Source: Bacilli bacterium (GTDB lineage: Bacteria > Bacillota_I > Bacilli_A > RF39 > UBA660). From it: a stretch of DNA of 64,000 nucleotides. The first letter of the stretch is position 1, and every line of letters begins with the position of its first letter. Both the position numbers and the translations under genes were made by a program. Below the pieces are notes generated by a model. That model had not been told where the DNA came from, did no database searches, and saw only the letters and a list, made by a program, of their open reading frames with translations. The stretch spans positions 1-64,000 of the forward strand of contig JAFYER010000005.1 of the NCBI GenBank assembly GCA_017544165.1. The letters run 5' to 3'. Positions 3,806 through 52,614 of this stretch are shown here, piece by piece.

Positions 3806-5569
3806 ATGAATGTTAAACAAAAGCCTAATAATATTGTAAAATTAACTATTTTTATAGCATTATTTATAATGCTTGTTTTGGCTGGCACTTATGCAGTTAT
3901 GATAAATATGTCTTATAATACTGAGAATGTTATAGCTTCGATTGGATCTAGACCCGTTTTTACTTCAAGCGCTACGAATGATATAGTAATGAATGAGATT
4001 CCATATATTGCTGAAGTATCTCAAACAGAATATGAGATAGCTAACGGAACGGATAATATTTCAATATCTTTATCAACCGGTTATACAACAAATACAATAT
4101 GTACATATGATATCGTTTGGGAATGGGGTATAGATTCAGATCATTATTTAAAGACTGCTGGTGCAAATAAAGAATTTACTGTTTCCGGAGTTTCTACGGA
4201 TGGACAAGTTTTTAACGAAGTTCAATTAAATGATTATAATGCAAATGATTTAAAGACAATACTAACGACTAGAGCTATATCAGCATCTGGTAGTTCAATG
4301 ACTTCTACAACATGGACATTCACAACACATTTTTATAAGACGCCTGCAATTCAAAGCGGCCATGCTGGCAATGCTTATGCTGGAAAGATATATATTGATA
4401 ATGTCAATTGCACTAAAAAACCTAAACTTGCAGAATATATTTCGTATATGCTACCTAAAAGCGGTACCGATGCTGTATCAAATAGTCCATGGATATTAAC
4501 AGAAGATCATCCAAATGAATGGCGATATGCAGGTAAAAATCCAGATAACTATATTTCCTTTAATGGTGAACTTTGGCGAATTATTGGAGTTATGCCAAAT
4601 ATGACATATTGCACAGGTGAATATGGAACTGAAACAGAATGCAATACAACCAAAACAGGGAGTTTAGTTAAGATAATAAGAAATCAAACAATCAGCAGTA
4701 ATACAATGCGTTGGGATTATAAGCAATCGGGCGTTGGATCGTCAACATCAAGTTATGGTTCAAACGATTGGAGTGATAGTCAGTTAATGCTGATGCTAAA
4801 TGGAACCAATTATTTAAAAACAGGCTATGATGTAAATGGTAATAAATTACATACAAGTTATACAATAACAAATAATATAGTTGCAGGAAATGGATATAAC
4901 TATTATAATGCAACATATAGTTATCTAGATGGAAATGGAACAACTGTAAATATCCCAAGTACGGCATCAACAAGTGCATATACAGCCACAACTGGAACTT
5001 TATATAAAAAAATAGAAAGCAGTGCACTATCCAAAATCGCCACAGTGAAATGGGATTTATATGGAACAAATTCATATTCAACAGCAGCACAAGGAAGCCC
5101 ATCAGCATTTTATAATAAAGAAAGAAATATAAATGGACTAGGAGCAGTATATACAGGAACAACACCAGAAAATAGAGCAGTATATTGGTATGGAAAAATA
5201 GGACTAATGTATCCAAGTGATTATGGATACGCAACAAATGGTGGAAGTACATATAATAGAGATGCTTGTTTAGGATATCAAATGTCAGGATGGAGTAGTG
5301 GAGATTATAAAACAGATTGTGCATTAAATAGTTATCTATTATTTCAAAATATAACATCAACTACACCGGGAACAAGTGGAACGGTGCAATGGACTTTAAG
5401 CCCGGGTTCAGGTTACGCCGGCTATGTGTTCACCGTCAATAGCTCTGGTTTCGTGAGCTACAACATCGCTGGCAGCACCTATGGCGTCCGGCCCGTCTTG
5501 TATCTTAAAGCTGATACAGAGTTTAGCGGTGGAAGCGGTACATATAGCGATCCATATATAATAAGTTAG
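3806..5569 (+). CDS. DGR variable target protein, membrane-anchored, lectin-like
   Basis: A 587-residue protein that is the diversified target of the retroelement. A single hydrophobic segment at about residues 12-32 acts as signal anchor, with the rest predicted outside the cell. The middle holds a conserved block, YISFNGELWRIIGV then NDWSDSQLMLMLN, shared with the gene at 45523. The VR encodes residues 532-563 close to the C-terminus and ends in GVRPVLYLK, a C-type-lectin-fold ending common in DGR targets (the fold is inferred). Thirteen residues in the VR differ from the TR-encoded version, many being Asn in TR and Tyr, Ser or Gly here. Base composition jumps from AT-rich to GC-rich exactly at the VR. 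The ligand is unknown. Confidence 0.88.
   Translation: MNVKQKPNNIVKLTIFIALFIMLVLAGTYAVMINMSYNTENVIASIGSRPVFTSSATNDIVMNEIPYIAEVSQTEYEIANGTDNISISLSTGYTTNTICTYDIVWEWGIDSDHYLKTAGANKEFTVSGVSTDGQVFNEVQLNDYNANDLKTILTTRAISASGSSMTSTTWTFTTHFYKTPAIQSGHAGNAYAGKIYIDNVNCTKKPKLAEYISYMLPKSGTDAVSNSPWILTEDHPNEWRYAGKNPDNYISFNGELWRIIGVMPNMTYCTGEYGTETECNTTKTGSLVKIIRNQTISSNTMRWDYKQSGVGSSTSSYGSNDWSDSQLMLMLNGTNYLKTGYDVNGNKLHTSYTITNNIVAGNGYNYYNATYSYLDGNGTTVNIPSTASTSAYTATTGTLYKKIESSALSKIATVKWDLYGTNSYSTAAQGSPSAFYNKERNINGLGAVYTGTTPENRAVYWYGKIGLMYPSDYGYATNGGSTYNRDACLGYQMSGWSSGDYKTDCALNSYLLFQNITSTTPGTSGTVQWTLSPGSGYAGYVFTVNSSGFVSYNIAGSTYGVRPVLYLKADTEFSGGSGTYSDPYIIS
5398..5494 (+). repeat. DGR variable repeat (VR)
   Basis: A 97-base imperfect copy of the template repeat at 5641-5737 (constant offset 243). 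Seventeen positions differ, and in all seventeen the template has A: eight became G, eight became T and one became C. Non-adenine positions are identical throughout. The 3' end, GGCGTCCGGCCC (5483-5494), is unchanged and GC-rich, as expected for the initiation-of-mutagenic-homing segment. Identity stops just after it. Confidence 0.95.
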
Positions 5570-5574
5570 AGGCA

Positions 5575-5617
5575 GTCCGAAGGACAACGTCCCTGCCGGC
5601 TCTCAATCCGGCAGGAC
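5575..5617. other. GC-rich inverted repeats between VR and TR
   Basis: Two hairpins sit between the target stop codon and TR: GTCC-GAA-GGAC (5575-5585) and a stronger one with arms CCTGCCGG (5592-5599) and CCGGCAGG (5608-5615) around an eight-base loop, extendable by GTC/GAC with one bulge. Studied DGRs need a short hairpin or cruciform downstream of VR for efficient homing. The position here, about 95 bases past the VR end, is compatible, but the role is inferred. It could instead be the 5' structure of the TR RNA or a transcriptional pause or terminator; no T-run follows. Confidence 0.6.
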
Positions 5618-5640
5618 ATAAATGGGGTAATCTTTACAAA

Positions 5641-5737
5641 AAGCCCGAATTCAGGTAACGCCAACAATGTGTTCAACGTCAATAGCACTGGTAACGTGAA
5701 CAACAACAACGCTAACAACACCAATGGCGTCCGGCCC
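5641..5737 (+). repeat. DGR template repeat (TR)
   Basis: The non-coding donor copy, transcribed and reverse-transcribed by the RT. Read in the VR frame it would encode SPNSGNANNVFNVNSTGN and more Asn-rich sequence: fourteen AAC or AAT codons line up with the variable positions, the standard DGR design, because AAY can mutate to fifteen residues with no stop codon. It contains 34 adenines, of which 17 are changed in VR. It is GC-richer than the surrounding chromosome. Confidence 0.95.
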
Positions 5738-5896
5738 AATTTTGTGAGCACCATGCATTTTATGTCTTTATGGTCAAGGCTATAGGAAACAAGTGCAAGG
5801 TTCATAGATTATCCTTAGGCTAATGCCTTAAATAATGACTAGATGGAAGAGGTCTACGGACTTCTTCCTATCCCTAGTCTCAATGGAATTATTAAA
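5738..5896 (+). ncRNA. Structured RNA segment downstream of TR
   Basis: Non-coding region between TR and the first accessory ORF. It contains a small hairpin, AGGC-TAAT-GCCT (5818-5829), and a long one at 5837-5879. In the latter, GACTAG pairs with CTAGTC outside, GGAAGAGGTC pairs with GACTTCTTCC inside with one G-U, and the loop is TACG closed by C-G, a UNCG-class stable tetraloop. Known DGR RNAs extend past TR into a structured region that binds RT and Avd and primes cDNA synthesis; assignment here is by position and structure only. Confidence 0.6.
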
Positions 5897-6181
5897 ATGA
5901 TAGAACGATATTTAATATTAAAAAGTGTTTATCCGAATTATTTGATTTTTTTTAAGAAAAAGGATGACATCAAATACATTGGAGAAACAAAGCTTATTAT
6001 TGACACGTTTGGTTTAAATGTTAAGAAAAAAGTTAATTATTTAATTATTGAAAATTTAGATATTATTGAAATAAAAAATCATAATAATAATCTATATGAT
6101 ATTTATTATTGCAAGGCATTTTTGATAAATATTATTAAGTCTTATATGAAAAGAAGAAAGGATGATTTTCTTGAACGCTAA
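5897..6181 (+). CDS. Unrecognised small DGR-cassette protein
   Basis: A 94-residue protein (112 if started at the upstream ATG 5843) that I cannot assign. The ATG at 5897 is preferred because 5843 lies inside the UACG-capped hairpin and has no ribosome binding site, whereas a weak GGA precedes 5897. It is rich in Ile, Lys and Asn, with predicted beta strands in the middle (YLIIENLDIIEIKNH) and a basic C-terminal helix ending KRRKDDF. No signal or membrane segment. It lies between TR and the MutS-like gene, overlaps that gene by 20 bases, and is therefore probably part of the DGR. Confidence 0.6.
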   Translation: MIERYLILKSVYPNYLIFFKKKDDIKYIGETKLIIDTFGLNVKKKVNYLIIENLDIIEIKNHNNNLYDIYYCKAFLINIIKSYMKRRKDDFLER

Positions 6182-6551
6182 AACATTTTTAATGATATAT
6201 AAAAATAGTGGTAAATTTTATAATGTCTTTGGTATTGACGCATATGTTTTGAATTATTTTTTCGACTATAAGATTTTAAATAATAATAAAGCTGGGTTTC
6301 CTGATAATGCAATTGATAGGGTAATTGAAAAATTGCAAAAAGAAAAGATATCATATCAAATTATTTATAAGGACAAAGATCCCATTATTAAAGATTTTAA
6401 GAAACTAAATAAGTATAGTAAATTGATTGATGATATAAAAAATGAAGTTGAATTAAAACAAAGATTTGATTTATTAACTGAGAAAATAAAAAAATTAGAT
6501 GAAAAAAAGTTTCTTGAAGTAATAGAGTGCATAGAAAAATGTATAGAGTAA
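6162..6551 (+). CDS. MutS domain-I-like DGR accessory protein
   Basis: A 129-residue protein resembling only the N-terminal mismatch-recognition domain of MutS. GKFYNVFGIDAYVL matches the Phe-Tyr-containing strand of MutS (FYELFFEDG in this window's own MutS), AGFPDNAIDRVIEKL corresponds to the GVPHHA helix, and ISYQII to the RVAVCEQ strand. Residues 85-129 are a charged helix not found in MutS. MutS-like accessory proteins have been reported in some DGRs. A TTG at 6171 with AAAGG upstream is a plausible alternative start. Its role in homing or DNA recognition is inference. Confidence 0.7.
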   Translation: MIFLNAKTFLMIYKNSGKFYNVFGIDAYVLNYFFDYKILNNNKAGFPDNAIDRVIEKLQKEKISYQIIYKDKDPIIKDFKKLNKYSKLIDDIKNEVELKQRFDLLTEKIKKLDEKKFLEVIECIEKCIE

Positions 6552-6904
6552 ATAATAATGATTTTAAAATATTAAGTAAATACAAATCTTTTTTAGAGGA
6601 ATTAGATGATGCTTTGGAAAATGTTCCTAGAAAAGATATGTATTTTAAAGATAAAATTAGAGATGTTAGTTATGATTTATTATACTTAATTATAAGATGT
6701 AGTTATGAGTCAAATAGCGAAGAATTAATTAAAATGGAATCTGATATTAAAACTCATATATCGTTACTTGATTTTTTTATTGAAAGGTTATTTACAAAGA
6801 AATATTTAAGTGAAAAGAAGGCTTATAAAATAGGCGGTTTTTTAGTTGAAATTAATAAAATGGTAAATGGTTTTATAAACAATAAGGTAAAAGATGTTAG
6901 TTAA
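6527..6904 (+). CDS. Avd-like four-helix-bundle DGR accessory protein
   Basis: A 125-residue, basic, all-helical protein in the position and size of the accessory variability determinant (Avd), which forms a pentameric barrel, binds nucleic acid and partners with the RT. Helical stretches such as YKSFLEELDDALENVP, YDLLYLIIRCSY, LLDFFIERLF and YKIGGFLVEINKMVNGFI fit the four-helix-bundle pattern. It starts at GTG 6527 or ATG 6539. It overlaps the MutS-like gene by 25 bases and the RT gene by 11, so it is translationally coupled to both. Sequence identity to Avd is low, so assignment rests on size, fold pattern and context. Confidence 0.75.
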   Translation: MHRKMYRVNNNDFKILSKYKSFLEELDDALENVPRKDMYFKDKIRDVSYDLLYLIIRCSYESNSEELIKMESDIKTHISLLDFFIERLFTKKYLSEKKAYKIGGFLVEINKMVNGFINNKVKDVS

Positions 6905-7958
6905 TATAAAAGATTTGGCAATTGTATATGACGAAGAAATAAGAAAAAATGTCAAAAATAAGCGCAAAATATTTGCATTTGAGAAAAATAAATTTCAATA
7001 TTTAGTAAGTATTAAAAGAGTGTTAGAAAATGGTGAATATGACGGTGGAAAATATAATATTTTTATTGTTTATAAACCCAAAATACGTGTGGTAATGAGC
7101 CAAAGTATATATGATAAGATTATTAACCATTATGTTACAAGGTTTATTTTAATGCCAAAATTAAATAAGTATTTAAATCATAATAATTGTGCTACTCGTA
7201 AAAATATGGGGACTAGTTATGCTATTCGACTTTTAAAAAAATATATAGAATATTATAAGAAACATTTTTCGACATTCTATTATTTAAAGATGGATATAAA
7301 AAAATATTTTTATAGCATTGACCATCAGACGCTACTTGCATTTTTACAAAAAGATTTAAGTAATGAAGAACTTTTATTAATGAAGACTATTTTAAATAGC
7401 ACTAATAAATCATATATTAATAAAACAATTAATAGTTACTCTGATAAAGTTAAAATGCAGTTGCCGTTATATGAATATGGAAAAGGACTTCCAATTGGAA
7501 ATATGAGTAGTCAGTTTTTAGCTGTTTTTTATATGCATAAATTACACCATTATATGGAAGCAAATTTACATATAAAGTTTGTATGCTATATGGATGATTT
7601 TATTATTTTAAATGAGAATAAAGATAAGCTAAAAGAATATCAAGAATTTATTAGTAAAGTCCTTTTAGATGAATATAAACTTTTTATAAATACTAAAAAA
7701 ACATATATTGCAAACATTAAAGAAGGATTGCCTTTTTTAGGACATATTTTTAAAATTAAAAATAATAAAACAGTAATGCGTTTGTCACAAAATAGCAAAA
7801 AAAATATAAAAAAAGGAATTAAAAGTAGTAAGTATTATTATGCAAAAGGAATTATAAAGTTTAGTCAATTATTTTCTAGCATCGAAACATATATGCATAG
7901 TTATATATTTGTGCATGACAACACAGTTAAAAACATAGTTAATAAGTATTGGTATTAA
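6894..7958 (+). CDS. DGR reverse transcriptase
   Basis: A 354-residue reverse transcriptase. Motif A is YLKMDIKKYFYSID with catalytic Asp134; motif B is GLPIGNMSSQ at 198-207, in which Ile and Gln replace the Q-G and S-P of group II intron and retroviral enzymes, a hallmark of the DGR clade; motif C is YMDDF with Asp234 and Asp235. The C-terminal basic thumb is short and there is no maturase or endonuclease domain. The AAGG before ATG 6894 lies inside the Avd-like gene. A terminator follows at 7995. Together with Avd it copies TR RNA into adenine-mutated cDNA. Confidence 0.96.
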   Translation: MLVNIKDLAIVYDEEIRKNVKNKRKIFAFEKNKFQYLVSIKRVLENGEYDGGKYNIFIVYKPKIRVVMSQSIYDKIINHYVTRFILMPKLNKYLNHNNCATRKNMGTSYAIRLLKKYIEYYKKHFSTFYYLKMDIKKYFYSIDHQTLLAFLQKDLSNEELLLMKTILNSTNKSYINKTINSYSDKVKMQLPLYEYGKGLPIGNMSSQFLAVFYMHKLHHYMEANLHIKFVCYMDDFIILNENKDKLKEYQEFISKVLLDEYKLFINTKKTYIANIKEGLPFLGHIFKIKNNKTVMRLSQNSKKNIKKGIKSSKYYYAKGIIKFSQLFSSIETYMHSYIFVHDNTVKNIVNKYWY

Positions 7959-24788: not shown

Positions 24789-24794
24789 AAAAAT

Positions 24795-24973
24795 ACCTAG
24801 ATATAGTTTGTTTTTAGTATAAAACCGACAATGTTGATAATACGGGAATCTAATTAAATCACGGTGTTGAAGACCTACCCATTAAGTGTTGTAGGAATCC
24901 TAATGTGGTTTATGTGATGCCCACCTGCGTAGAGCGGGATTTTATCAAATTAATAAACTATACTAGGTTTTTT
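24795..24973 (+). ncRNA. ssrS: Probable 6S RNA
   Basis: A roughly 178-nt non-coding RNA predicted to fold as one long rod with a central bubble, the architecture of 6S RNA, which mimics an open promoter and binds sigma-A RNA polymerase. The ends pair (CCTAGATATAGTTTGTTT with AATAAACTATACTAGG), then TGATAA with TTATCA, ATCAC with GTGAT, and a terminal hairpin CCTAC/GTAGG. The right end arm followed by six Ts is a terminator. It lies directly upstream of tcdA, as Bacillus 6S-1 lies between aspS and tcdA. I have no covariance score. Confidence 0.72.
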
Positions 24974-24986
24974 AATAGGAGTATTT

Positions 24987-45526: not shown

Positions 45527-46680
45527 TAAAGAAAAACGGTTTTATATCAATTTCAATTATTTACTCTTTTTTTATAATTTTTATGCTCACTCTAGTTTTA
45601 ATCATGACTTCTTATGTCAATACTAGAATTAGGCTTAATATTTATAAAAAAGATATTAAAAAGACGTATGCTGGCACTGAAACGTACCTTTATGATTATG
45701 TTAAAAGTAAAGCAACAGCTATAACTAGAGCGGATAACGCTAAAGATTATCGTTACATTGGCGCTACTGTCAACAATTATGTTTCATTTAATGGTGAAAA
45801 ATGGCGTATTGTTGGGGCAATATGCCAAAATACGACTTGCTCTGCTCGTAGTGATTATTATATTAAAATTGTCCGTACTACTACTTTTAACACGCCTTGG
45901 GATTGCAAGAAAAAAAATGTTGGATCTTCAGCTTCCGATACGGGTTCCCATGACTGGAGCGATAGTCAACTGATGATGATGCTTAATCCTAAAGATTATT
46001 ACAAATCAGGACGTAATGGAAGTACAGTTTTACATAATAATTATACTTTAGATGGGTATGCTGTCAAAGATGGTCATAATCCTAAAATAGTTCTTTATTC
46101 GCAAATGGGTGCATATTTTAAAAATACTTTATCTTTATATAAATTAGTTGCTACTGATAATACCGGTTTTACTAGCAATGCAACTGCTACTAAATGCGCT
46201 AACAGTTCTTCTACTAATTGTTTAACTATTATTTCTGAAGATAGTCAAGGTAAAATTCAAGCAGCTAAATGGGTAACCAATCTTATTGATATGACGAAGG
46301 TTAGTAGTTCCACTAATTTTGACAAACTTGAAAAAACTGGAAATTATTATTGGACAGGTAAAACCGGTTTACTCCATGCTAGTGATATTTGTTATTCTTA
46401 TAATAATGCCACTAATCGTAATAAGTGTTTACAAAGCAATACTTTAGTAGCAGGAGCATCTTGGCTATATGATGATACTAAAACAATTGATGAATGGTTC
46501 CTGGATGCTACTACTGATAAAAATGTGTTATATATTGCTGCTAATGGTACTAAATTTGAAAAAACAACAAGTCTATGTAGTAATAAATATATTAGAACAG
46601 TTATGTATTTAAAAAATACTACAACAGTTATTGGTAATCAAGATGGTTCAAGTGCCAAACCATTACTTTTAGGAGAATAA
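45523..46680 (+). CDS. Pilin-like protein carrying the DGR-target scaffold
   Basis: A 385-residue protein starting at ATG 45523 (GTGGGTG upstream, ATGA overlap). The N-terminus KKNG/FISISIIYSF is pilin-like but lacks the conserved Glu. The body is homologous to the DGR target at 3806: NYVSFNGEKWRIVGAICQ and SHDWSDSQLMMMLNPKDYY match that protein's equivalent blocks, and the C-terminus RTVMYLKNTT aligns with VRPVLYLKAD. It has no GC-rich VR or homing segment, so it is a non-diversified paralogue. Cys residues suggest extracellular disulfides. Confidence 0.78.
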   Translation: MIKKNGFISISIIYSFFIIFMLTLVLIMTSYVNTRIRLNIYKKDIKKTYAGTETYLYDYVKSKATAITRADNAKDYRYIGATVNNYVSFNGEKWRIVGAICQNTTCSARSDYYIKIVRTTTFNTPWDCKKKNVGSSASDTGSHDWSDSQLMMMLNPKDYYKSGRNGSTVLHNNYTLDGYAVKDGHNPKIVLYSQMGAYFKNTLSLYKLVATDNTGFTSNATATKCANSSSTNCLTIISEDSQGKIQAAKWVTNLIDMTKVSSSTNFDKLEKTGNYYWTGKTGLLHASDICYSYNNATNRNKCLQSNTLVAGASWLYDDTKTIDEWFLDATTDKNVLYIAANGTKFEKTTSLCSNKYIRTVMYLKNTTTVIGNQDGSSAKPLLLGE

Positions 46681-50079: not shown

Positions 50080-52614
50080 ATGAAACGTAGTGAAGTAGAT
50101 CGCAGTAAATTAAGTCCAATGATGGCTCAATATATGGAAATTAAAGATTCCCATCCCAATGAGCTTCTTTTTTATCGTTTAGGAGACTTTTATGAGCTTT
50201 TTTTCGAAGATGGCATAACTGCCTCGAAAGAATTAGAACTTGCTTTAACTGGTAGAAATGCCGGTCTTGAAGAAAGGGTACCAATGTGTGGCGTACCTCA
50301 TCACGCTGTAAAATCATACATAGAAAGATTAGTTAGTAAAGGTTATAGAGTAGCTGTTTGTGAACAACTTGAAGATCCTCGTTTTACAAAAGGAATGGTA
50401 AAAAGGGGAGTTATTGATGTCATTAGTAAAGGAACAGTCGCAGATTTCGAGTTTTTAGATAGTTATAGTAATTCATATATTGCTTCGGTATTAGAGTTTA
50501 TTGACGTTTTTATTGTAACAATTTTAGATATTTCTACCGGTAAACTTTTAAGTGTTTCTTTAGAAAGAAATGAAACTAAATTAATTAATCTCATAGAACA
50601 ATATCAAATAAAAGAGGTTATTTTTAAAGATTTCGAAGAAAAAGAATTGATTGATAAATTAAAAAACACATATAATATTGAAGTAGAATATAGTTTTGAT
50701 TCATACGATAATATTCCAAATGGTTTATTTGAGGATATTACTGATGTGAGAGTAAAACTTGGAGTATGTCATCTTTATTACTATTTAGTTAATGTTGAAC
50801 TTAAGGATTTATCAGGCATTAGTGAGATAAAAATAATTAATCAAAACGATTATTTGCAAATGGATATCCATACTATTCGAAATCTTGAATTAGTTGAGAC
50901 AATGCGCAGTAAAGAAAGACAATATTCACTTTTATGGCTTTTAGATAAATGTAAAACCGCAATGGGATCTCGTAAACTAAAAGAGTGGATTTTAAATCCC
51001 TTACGCAATAAAGATATTTTAATTTCACGTTATGATAAGATTGAAAAATTAAATAATGAGTTTATTTTAAAAGATGAATTAAGAACCAATCTGGACGATA
51101 TTTATGATATTGAAAGATTAACCGGTAAAGTTACGAATGGCAGTTTAAATGCTCGAGATTTATTACAGCTAAAAAAGAGCTTGCTCGTTTTACCAAAAAT
51201 AAAAGATATTATTGAAAAATTAGGATTTAATTATAATATTGATACTTTTGATTCATTAACTGACTTGCTTGAAAAGGCCATAGATGAAAATGCGCCGATT
51301 AGCGTCAAAGAAGGCGGCATGATTAAAAGTGGCTTCAATAAAGAACTCGATGAATTAAAAGAAATAAAAGCCGGTGGCAAAAAATTTGTTGCTTCCTTCG
51401 AAGAAAAAATTAAAAATGAGACAGGTATAAAAAATTTAAAAGTTGGCTTTAATAAAGTATTTGGTTATTATATTGAAATATCTAAGGGCCAAGCAACTTT
51501 TGTTAAGGAAGAATTTGGCTGGGATAGAAAACAAACATTAACAAATTGTGAAAGATTTATATCACCTGAACTTAAAGAAAAAGAATCATTAATTTTAAAT
51601 GCTGAAGAGAAAATTATTGATTTAGAATATGAATTATTTAATGATATCAAGAACAAAGTTAAAGAAAATATATTAAATATTAGGAATGTTGCAGAAAGTA
51701 TAAGTGAAATAGATGTTTTAGCATCACTTTCTAAAGTAAGTGAAGATAATAATTATGTAAGACCAGAATTAAATGATAATCACACAATTGAAATCATTGG
51801 AGGAAGACACCCAGTTGTTGAAATCGTATCAAACGATTCCTATGTAGATAATGATTGTATTATGGATGATAAAATATGTACTTTCTTAATTACGGGTCCA
51901 AATATGAGTGGTAAATCTACTTATATGCGACAAATAGCAATCACTGTCATTATGGCTCAAATTGGCTGTTATGTTCCCTGTAAGTCTGCTAAATTGCCTA
52001 TAATAGATAAGATATTTACTAGGATAGGGGCCTCTGATGATCTTGTAGGTGGCCAAAGTACTTTTATGGTAGAAATGTTAGAAGCAAATAATGCTATTTT
52101 AAATGCAACTGAAGATAGCTTGATCCTTTTTGACGAATTAGGAAGAGGAACGGCAACATATGATGGAATAGCTCTTGCTCAATCAATTTTGGAATATGTG
52201 AACGAGCATATTAATTGTAAAACATTCTTTTCGACACATTATCATGAAATAACAAGTCTTGATCAAAAATATAAAACAATTAAAAATGTTCACGTCGATG
52301 CTTGTGAAGAGGATGGAAAACTTGTTTTTTTACATAAGGTAAAAGATGGCGCTATTGATAAAAGTTATGGTATTCATGTTGCTTCACTTGCAAATATGCC
52401 AGATAGTCTTATTAAAAGGGCAAATGAAATTCTCGAACAATATGAATCAAATAAAAAAAATGTAAAAAATGATAATGTTCAATTATCTTTTGCTTTCGAG
52501 GAACAAAAAGATGACCTTTTAAAAAAATTTATTGACGGTATTAATCCTGATCAAATGACGCCAATTGAAGCACTTAATACACTATATGAATTGAAGGAAA
52601 AATACAAAAAATAG
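50080..52614 (+). CDS. mutS: DNA mismatch repair protein MutS
   Basis: An 844-residue MutS1. ATG 50080 follows a GTGAG site; GTG 50071 is an alternative. Domain I has the mismatch-probing motif GDFYELFFEDG (near residue 33) and GVPHHAVKSYIERL; the ATPase domain has Walker A ITGPNMSGKSTYMRQ, ILFDELGRGTATYDG and FFSTHYHEI. The C-terminus ends with the short tail helix. mutL is not adjacent. It lets the domain-I-like DGR accessory protein at 6162 be compared within one genome. Confidence 0.96.
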   Translation: MKRSEVDRSKLSPMMAQYMEIKDSHPNELLFYRLGDFYELFFEDGITASKELELALTGRNAGLEERVPMCGVPHHAVKSYIERLVSKGYRVAVCEQLEDPRFTKGMVKRGVIDVISKGTVADFEFLDSYSNSYIASVLEFIDVFIVTILDISTGKLLSVSLERNETKLINLIEQYQIKEVIFKDFEEKELIDKLKNTYNIEVEYSFDSYDNIPNGLFEDITDVRVKLGVCHLYYYLVNVELKDLSGISEIKIINQNDYLQMDIHTIRNLELVETMRSKERQYSLLWLLDKCKTAMGSRKLKEWILNPLRNKDILISRYDKIEKLNNEFILKDELRTNLDDIYDIERLTGKVTNGSLNARDLLQLKKSLLVLPKIKDIIEKLGFNYNIDTFDSLTDLLEKAIDENAPISVKEGGMIKSGFNKELDELKEIKAGGKKFVASFEEKIKNETGIKNLKVGFNKVFGYYIEISKGQATFVKEEFGWDRKQTLTNCERFISPELKEKESLILNAEEKIIDLEYELFNDIKNKVKENILNIRNVAESISEIDVLASLSKVSEDNNYVRPELNDNHTIEIIGGRHPVVEIVSNDSYVDNDCIMDDKICTFLITGPNMSGKSTYMRQIAITVIMAQIGCYVPCKSAKLPIIDKIFTRIGASDDLVGGQSTFMVEMLEANNAILNATEDSLILFDELGRGTATYDGIALAQSILEYVNEHINCKTFFSTHYHEITSLDQKYKTIKNVHVDACEEDGKLVFLHKVKDGAIDKSYGIHVASLANMPDSLIKRANEILEQYESNKKNVKNDNVQLSFAFEEQKDDLLKKFIDGINPDQMTPIEALNTLYELKEKYKK

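Follow-up and report, generated by a model that had tools for sequence, protein, structure and literature searches.

A chromosomal diversity-generating retroelement accompanied by two MutS-domain-I-like proteins and many paralogous lectin-fold targets

Our analysis identifies, very probably, a complete chromosomal diversity-generating retroelement (DGR) of an uncultured gut-type bacterium (Bacilli, RF39), with two MutS-domain-I proteins as its partners. The window, a stretch of 64,000 nucleotides from contig JAFYER010000005.1, carries all features of the cassette on its forward strand. The locus itself otherwise looks like an ordinary DGR; what stands out is the pair of small accessory proteins, here called ORF A and MSL, and the large number of sister targets elsewhere in the genome.

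The reverse transcriptase (RT; 354 aa, 6894-7958) matches RVT_1 (2e-18) and phrog_1423 (2e-60) and carries the motifs IGNMSSQ ([IV]GxxxSQ) and YMDD. Its assignment to the DGR type rests on these profiles, the motifs and the neighbouring repeat pair rather than on a formal RT phylogeny. It is the only RT of the DGR kind in the assembled genome, and among its homologues adjoining template/variable repeat pairs were found in 42 of 80 loci. The accessory protein Avd (6539-6904), whose gene overlaps both the MSL and the RT genes, was matched in three libraries (NF033474, 2e-11; phrog_3206 “Avd protein of DGR”, 6e-10; bAvd, 2e-7), with scores below the curated cut-offs in NCBIfam and Pfam. ORF A, MSL, Avd and RT follow each other in a tight operon, and all DGR genes are intact. 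The cassette is flanked by housekeeping genes (trmH, rimM and trmD upstream, nusB and xseA downstream). A sequence-only reading of the same DNA had claimed a complete DGR with a surface-type target in a chromosomal housekeeping context, comprising an IGNMSSQ/YMDD reverse transcriptase and an Avd-like gene, and each of these elements was recovered. It had overlooked the open reading frames at 5897-6181 and 6171-6551 as cassette members, as well as the remote paralogous targets.

The template repeat (TR, 5641-5737) was identified by comparison with the variable repeat (VR, 5398-5494), which comprises codons 532-563 of the 587-aa target and thus lies at its C-terminus. Over 97 nt a recount gave 17 mismatches (8 A-G, 8 A-T, 1 A-C), 17/17 at TR adenines, exactly as previously read; with 34 A in 97 positions, the probability that 17 random mismatches all fall on A is 6e-10. 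Differences at non-A positions of the TR amount to 0/63. The GC-rich 3' segment had been described as intact, and its IMH-like end, GGCGTCCGGCCC, is indeed the same in both repeats. Homology ends at CGGCCC, followed by AATTTT in the TR and GTCTTG in the VR. All 14 TR codons starting with AA are AAC or AAT, so an A-to-N change never produces a stop codon. RNA folding of the TR region was no better than that of shuffled sequences (z -0.9).

By the mechanism we propose, RT and Avd would copy the TR RNA (from 5641-5737) into cDNA, inserting bases at random wherever the template has an adenine, and this cDNA would take the place of the VR at the 3' end of the neighbouring surface-lectin gene. The earlier description of the element as recently active stands on indirect support: the 0/63 divergence at non-A positions, and a third-position GC content (GC3) of 0.70 in this cis VR vs 0.16 in the remaining target gene. 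Statements on activity rest on a single genome, with one genome per species, and no near-identical (same-species) locus was present in the genome collection searched, which excluded the source genome itself. A relic, in which the VR was rewritten long ago and is now fixed as in other paralogues, would fit this single genome and the retired look of most paralogous VRs here and of all those in a sister species; given the lack of non-A differences, a GC-rich VR inside a gene body of such low GC3, and the intactness of every DGR gene, we consider it very unlikely.

Homing would rely on the GC-rich 3' end that is identical in TR and VR, with a GC hairpin downstream probably giving further guidance. 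This hairpin (CCTGCCGG-8 nt-CCGGCAGG, 5592-5615) lies 98 nt beyond the VR end, within the intergenic element between target and TR (5570-5640) that recurs after two remote targets (from C10:29173 and from C4:25776 on). Only three copies of the hairpin exist in the genome, each behind a GC-rich VR. It is not a terminator, as it has no T-run and is absent from the terminator scan. The DGR of Bordetella phage BPP-1, where a GC hairpin follows the VR, sets a precedent for target recognition (PMC3240598), and by analogy the present hairpin is a candidate target-recognition hairpin. Hairpins of the phage (BPP-1) type lie 4-34 nt past the VR and have a 4-nt GRNA loop (PMC3240598), in contrast to the larger distance and 8-nt loop seen here. 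Among relatives, a scan for perfect post-VR stems was positive in only 4/37 (control 1.25%); imperfect stems are visible by eye in two-VR loci, an impression that has no formal control. With BPP-1 the locus further shares adenine-only TR/VR divergence, the GC-rich 3' end, Avd, a DGR-type RT and a target of C-type-lectin fold (PMC3240598). It differs from BPP-1 in being chromosomal, in its two MutS-domain-I-like accessories and in its many paralogous targets.

The target gene (3806-5569) was identified as an open reading frame with a DUF6273 match (3e-4, marginally short of the curated cut-off) and a fold match. The protein consists of an N-terminal hydrophobic signal/anchor segment, a variable N-terminal part and a C-terminal C-type-lectin-like (DUF6273) domain (4433-5566), the latter common to 14 full-length paralogues in the genome. 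A lectin fold had previously been guessed, and structure prediction of the C-terminal 378 aa bears this out: the best fold match is 9qa6 (Z 16.9 over 208 residues, 23% identity), followed by many C-type lectins and the lectin-like domain of the Lcl adhesin (PMC12237041, PMC12402451). The entry 9qa6 represents the C-type-lectin-like DUF6273 domain at the N-terminus of the Thomasclavelia ramosa IgA peptidase. By structure comparison the two domains have the same fold; the T. ramosa domain is joined to a peptidase and is not known to undergo hypermutation, whereas the domain described here is a DGR target. The gene of one target paralogue stands first in an operon for a Tad pilus. Adhesion is the probable role of the displayed lectin. 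Roux et al. 2021 describe clade 3 DGRs, a clade with viral and cellular members, and clusters of membrane-bound targets (PMC8144416); the present element resembles these in being cellular and in having a lectin-fold target that is of the membrane type and variable at its C-terminus.

A single RT and a single assembled TR are found vs 14 full-length paralogous targets. In all 14 paralogues, hypervariable columns coincide with the AAN codons of the TR (2.80 vs 1.31 bits; reached in 0 of 20,000 permutations). The GC3 of the paralogous VRs is bimodal: the cis VR and four others are GC-rich, and nine targets have composition-ameliorated (“retired”), AT-rich VRs. Three distant targets carry VRs that fit a common second template (TR2), not the assembled TR. 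The variation of these three VRs is nearly confined to adenine columns of that template: they agree at 53/63 non-A columns, wobble bases included, and at 2/34 TR-A columns; their third-position identity is 0.88-0.94 in the VR, 0.64-0.75 in the gene core and 0.18-0.36 in the A columns. When TR2 was searched for in the genome itself (an 88%-complete assembly), only the known TR, the remote VRs and a TR-leader/VR hybrid on contig C10 were returned. A match at C10:29083 was rejected as a second intact TR, as its 3' half runs on into a target tail; for the hybrid (C10:29173-29420) we propose a deletion scar. As TR2 was not found in this assembly, the RT described here is the presumed agent of rewriting in trans. 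The remote targets would have been rewritten in trans and would later retire as fixed variants. Diversity of the remote VRs could instead stem from recombination or gene conversion among paralogues, combined with selection on ligand-binding codons and no trans retrohoming. Such a scenario could draw on the missing TR for the three remote VRs, on long homologous stretches common to the paralogues and on the resemblance of the C10 hybrid to a recombination scar. Gene conversion would, however, homogenise A and non-A columns alike, so the contrast between the two column classes, seen although flanking synonymous sites have diverged, speaks against it, and we regard it as unlikely.

The many-target arrangement has a counterpart in the Treponema denticola DGR (TvpA family), in which one RT and one TR serve 2-7 remote paralogous lectin-fold targets together with an HRDC-type accessory, and in which strains without RT/TR retain leftover targets (PMC4891356). 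Both systems combine one RT and TR with several remote lectin-fold targets and show leftovers where RT/TR are absent: in a sister species (G004) of our bacterium no RT or TR was detected, and its VRs are only of the AT-rich, retired kind. Unlike T. denticola, the genome studied here has the MSL pair in place of the HRDC-type accessory, 14 full-length paralogues that are mostly composition-ameliorated, and some VRs that point to a second template.

MSL (127 aa, 6171-6551; start TTG 6171, with ATG 6162 as a possible alternative) lies between the TR and Avd and matches the MutS domain I profile PF01624 at E 0.0015; 14 of 16 family members match, the best at 3e-10. ORF A (94 aa, 5897-6181) has no Pfam match. 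Compared with the MSL family by hhalign it gives E 1.6e-11, and a broader profile comparison of the two gives a weak match (E 6e-5, prob 65%). In a fold search with its AF2 model (pLDDT 96.8), the top 24 matches are all domain I of MutS/MSH (Z 7.2, below 8). On its profile and predicted fold, ORF A is a diverged paralogue of MSL. An MSL (MutS-like, PF01624) accessory of DGRs is named in PMC10053308, which cites Wu et al. 2018, and as in those MSL-type DGRs our MSL adjoins Avd and RT. Compared with MSL-type DGRs as described there, the present clade has an extra, Pfam-invisible paralogue, ORF A, in nearly all members, and RT-MSL fusions.

The two MutS-domain-I-like proteins are near-universal partners of this chromosomal DGR clade: of 80 related chromosomal loci, 79 encode MSL and 76 encode ORF A, and 46 related viral loci have neither. 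MSL was found in 21/25 RT-positive relatives, four having no detected MSL, vs 3/92 RT-negative ones. In three genera (G066, G008, G068) the C-terminus of the RT is fused to MSL.

In MutS proper, the Glu of the mismatch motif commits the protein to repair; of the MSH proteins, MSH6 keeps the mismatch-wedge Phe and MSH2 is without it. The wedge Phe (Phe16 of the present MSL) is found in 54/54 MSLs, fusions included, and the Glu in 1/54; ORF A as a rule has neither residue, and the Phe-X-Glu motif of MutS is characteristic of neither protein. Both consist of domain I only, domains II-V (ATPase, clamp) being absent. The cell's own MutS is encoded by an intact separate 848-aa gene near 50116 in the same window. 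Within the RT complex, the MutS-domain-I modules would use the conserved Phe to grip a mismatched duplex, either cDNA/VR or cDNA/RNA; with the Glu missing there would be no repair commitment, so that A-to-N changes would escape the cell's MutS. That the modules shield the mismatched duplex from host MutS is, in our judgement, possible but doubtful. An isolated MutS domain I is not known to bind mismatches without the remaining domains. The pair may instead be a nucleic-acid-binding or structural cofactor of RT and Avd (in template RNA binding, priming or target-hairpin docking) unrelated to mismatch repair, to which we give slightly less than an even chance: RT-MSL fusions show partnership and not mismatch binding, the MutS Glu and the other MutS domains are lost, and phage DGRs work without MSL although equally exposed to host repair. 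The invariance of the wedge Phe would, however, be unexpected for a docking surface alone. Returning to the shielding idea, we tentatively suggest a joint reading in which a Phe-bearing and a Phe-less protein, paired like MSH6/MSH2 and sometimes fused to the RT, bind cDNA/VR mismatches without a repair signal; host repair would be escaped, and several targets would be written in trans, leaving behind a growing set of frozen variants.

Wobble-base GC and template-column statistics together provide a simple genome-only test that separates live, trans-rewritten and retired DGR targets. Surveys limited to the RT neighbourhood cannot see such target classes; in the survey by Roux et al. 2021 remote targets are, by its own statement, undetectable, and the word “accessory” is unused (PMC8144416). 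How DGR cDNA keeps its A-to-N changes in the face of the cell's mismatch repair is an obvious question to ask, and near-obligate, sometimes RT-fused MutS-domain-I modules make it directly testable.

The DGR cassette of the window is ordered target (3806-5569), hairpin element, TR (5641-5737), ORF A (5897-6181), MSL (ORF B, 6171-6551), Avd (6539-6904) and RT (6894-7958), and the last four genes overlap end to start. A repeat search reproduced the position of the TR/VR pair in the sequence-only reading (VR 5398-5494; 97 nt, gapless), and the adenine-specific divergence claimed there holds: all 17 mismatches lie at the 34 TR adenines and none at the 63 other positions (P 6e-10). Since the varying TR codons are AAC or AAT, A-to-N changes would permit 15 residues and no stop. 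The RT and the Avd-like gene were both recognised by three libraries, Avd under curated cut-offs. The proposed housekeeping context was likewise recovered (trmH, rimM, trmD; nusB, xseA), and no phage genes lie close to the cassette. A homologous cassette adjoins trmH and rimM-trmD in a related MAG (L144; L078 belongs to the same genome) and trmH at L098, also in a related MAG. Given these shared neighbours, the cassette is a settled chromosomal element. The window also carries an ordinary 6S RNA gene (24790-24974, +; Rfam 56.3 bits).

The cassette encodes two proteins resembling MutS domain I. ORF B alone matches this domain weakly in a profile search (E 0.0015); 14 of its 16 relatives match it, the best at E 3e-10. 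ORF A has no Pfam match. Profile comparison aligned it to MSL at E 1.6e-11 with small alignments and at E 6e-5 with larger ones. Its predicted structure (pLDDT 96.8) retrieved MutS/MSH domain I in all top 24 fold matches, at Z values that are modest if taken alone (4.4-7.2), before the next match fell to Z 2.3. This step and the sequence profile jointly make the case for ORF A as a predicted MutS-domain-I-like protein.

Both genes accompany the RT. Among 80 loci with the best RT matches in named genome assemblies (uncultured Bacilli/Tenericutes, many gut-derived), usually ordered MSL-Avd-RT-ORF A, Avd occurs in 78, MSL in 79 and ORF A in 76; because the loci were picked by RT similarity, the latter two counts describe the RT's own clade, not DGRs at large. 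Viral-contig relatives carry neither MSL nor ORF A (0/46 each) and Avd in at least 20 of 46. Across 117 related whole genomes, MSL is found in 21 of 25 with the RT versus 3 of 92 without. In three genera the RT (496-519 aa) itself ends in an MSL domain (E 6e-16 to 1e-24; L057, L062 and L065 in genomes G008, G066 and G068). MSL is a known DGR accessory according to a passage in PMC10053308 citing Wu et al. 2018; we found neither RT-MSL fusions nor the MutS-domain-I character of ORF A described in the open-licence papers searched.

In MutS, a Phe stacks into the mismatch and a Glu contacts the base (PMC7672436). MSL has Phe at the wedge position in 54 of 54 sequences and Glu two residues later in one of 54; ORF A mostly has Tyr or aliphatic residues at the wedge-motif positions. 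Lebbink et al. (2006) reportedly found that MutS mutated at this Glu still binds yet fails to license repair. The RT complex would make cDNA that, once paired with the VR, mispairs at roughly half of the adenines; if a DGR-borne domain occupied these mismatches and sent no repair signal, the product would be protected. We regard such shielding by the MutS-domain-I proteins as a tentative idea, rather unlikely as it stands. An equally serious alternative, to which we give a little under an even chance, is that the pair is a plain RT cofactor. In a published study of a DGR in E. coli, mutS was removed so that substitutions would be kept (PMC12875486); the repair concern is therefore real, but this does not show that MSL answers it. 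The host's own MutS gene, intact with an open frame of 848 aa (domain I at 50116-50448, +), shares the window with the DGR and bears on the mismatch-repair idea.

With a single RT, the assembled, incomplete genome holds 14 full-length target-domain paralogues and two more distant ones, and their hypervariable residues fall on TR AAN codons. A distant target-domain relative lies in the window at 45718-46437 (+; 404-aa frame, 35% identity, no Pfam match). Wobble GC of the VR splits the 14 into five at 0.64-0.79 and nine at 0.15-0.33, with all gene bodies at 0.16-0.23; no description of such a composition test for retired targets was found in the open-licence papers searched. Among the five, the cis VR fits the TR perfectly. 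Those of L021, L023 and L024 fit one common other template, sharing nine non-A differences from the TR; their wobble identity is 0.88-0.94 in the VR versus 0.64-0.75 in the gene core, and random at A columns. The hairpin CCTGCCGG-loop-CCGGCAGG (window 5592-5615) has three genome copies, all following targets with a GC-rich VR (L020, L021, L024) at a distance of 98 nt from the VR end. It is absent from the sister species G004 (same genus), where no RT or TR was detected and about ten target paralogues (L222-L228) all have AT-rich VRs (wobble GC 0.06-0.21). The simplest history of the repertoire is that targets would be duplicated, rewritten in trans while template and hairpin persist, and then frozen and left to drift. 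DGRs with several targets, and leftover targets, were already known from Treponema denticola (PMC4891356) and from earlier surveys (PMC3521204, PMC6642488). At L013 (C10:29173-29420, a remote site in the genome), hairpin element, TR-like stretch, VR-like stretch and target tail follow one another without an RT, probably what was left when recombination between TR and downstream VR removed a second DGR. Genome G042, where two stop codons break the DGR RT (L052) and many target paralogues are still present, is apparently another loss.

The suspected lectin fold of the target was borne out by structure prediction (C-terminal 378 aa; mean pLDDT 71, mostly 80-90 in the VR region and lower over a stretch immediately preceding it): the best match is the lectin-like DUF6273 domain in the IgA peptidase of T. 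ramosa (Z 16.9), and lower-ranked matches are mostly C-type lectins (PMC12237041, PMC12402451). The target has only one hydrophobic segment at its N-terminus. A Tad pilus operon with TadE-like genes, TadZ, the CpaF ATPase and TadB/C (L015 4747-11545, C10:68746-75544) opens with a paralogue at C10:69427. Among relatives, one target adjoins a Flp-type pilin, and another, at L091 (525-2534), starts with a type IV prepilin motif (N_methyl), which suggests a hypermutable lectin borne on a pilin. The likeliest role of the target is surface adhesion.
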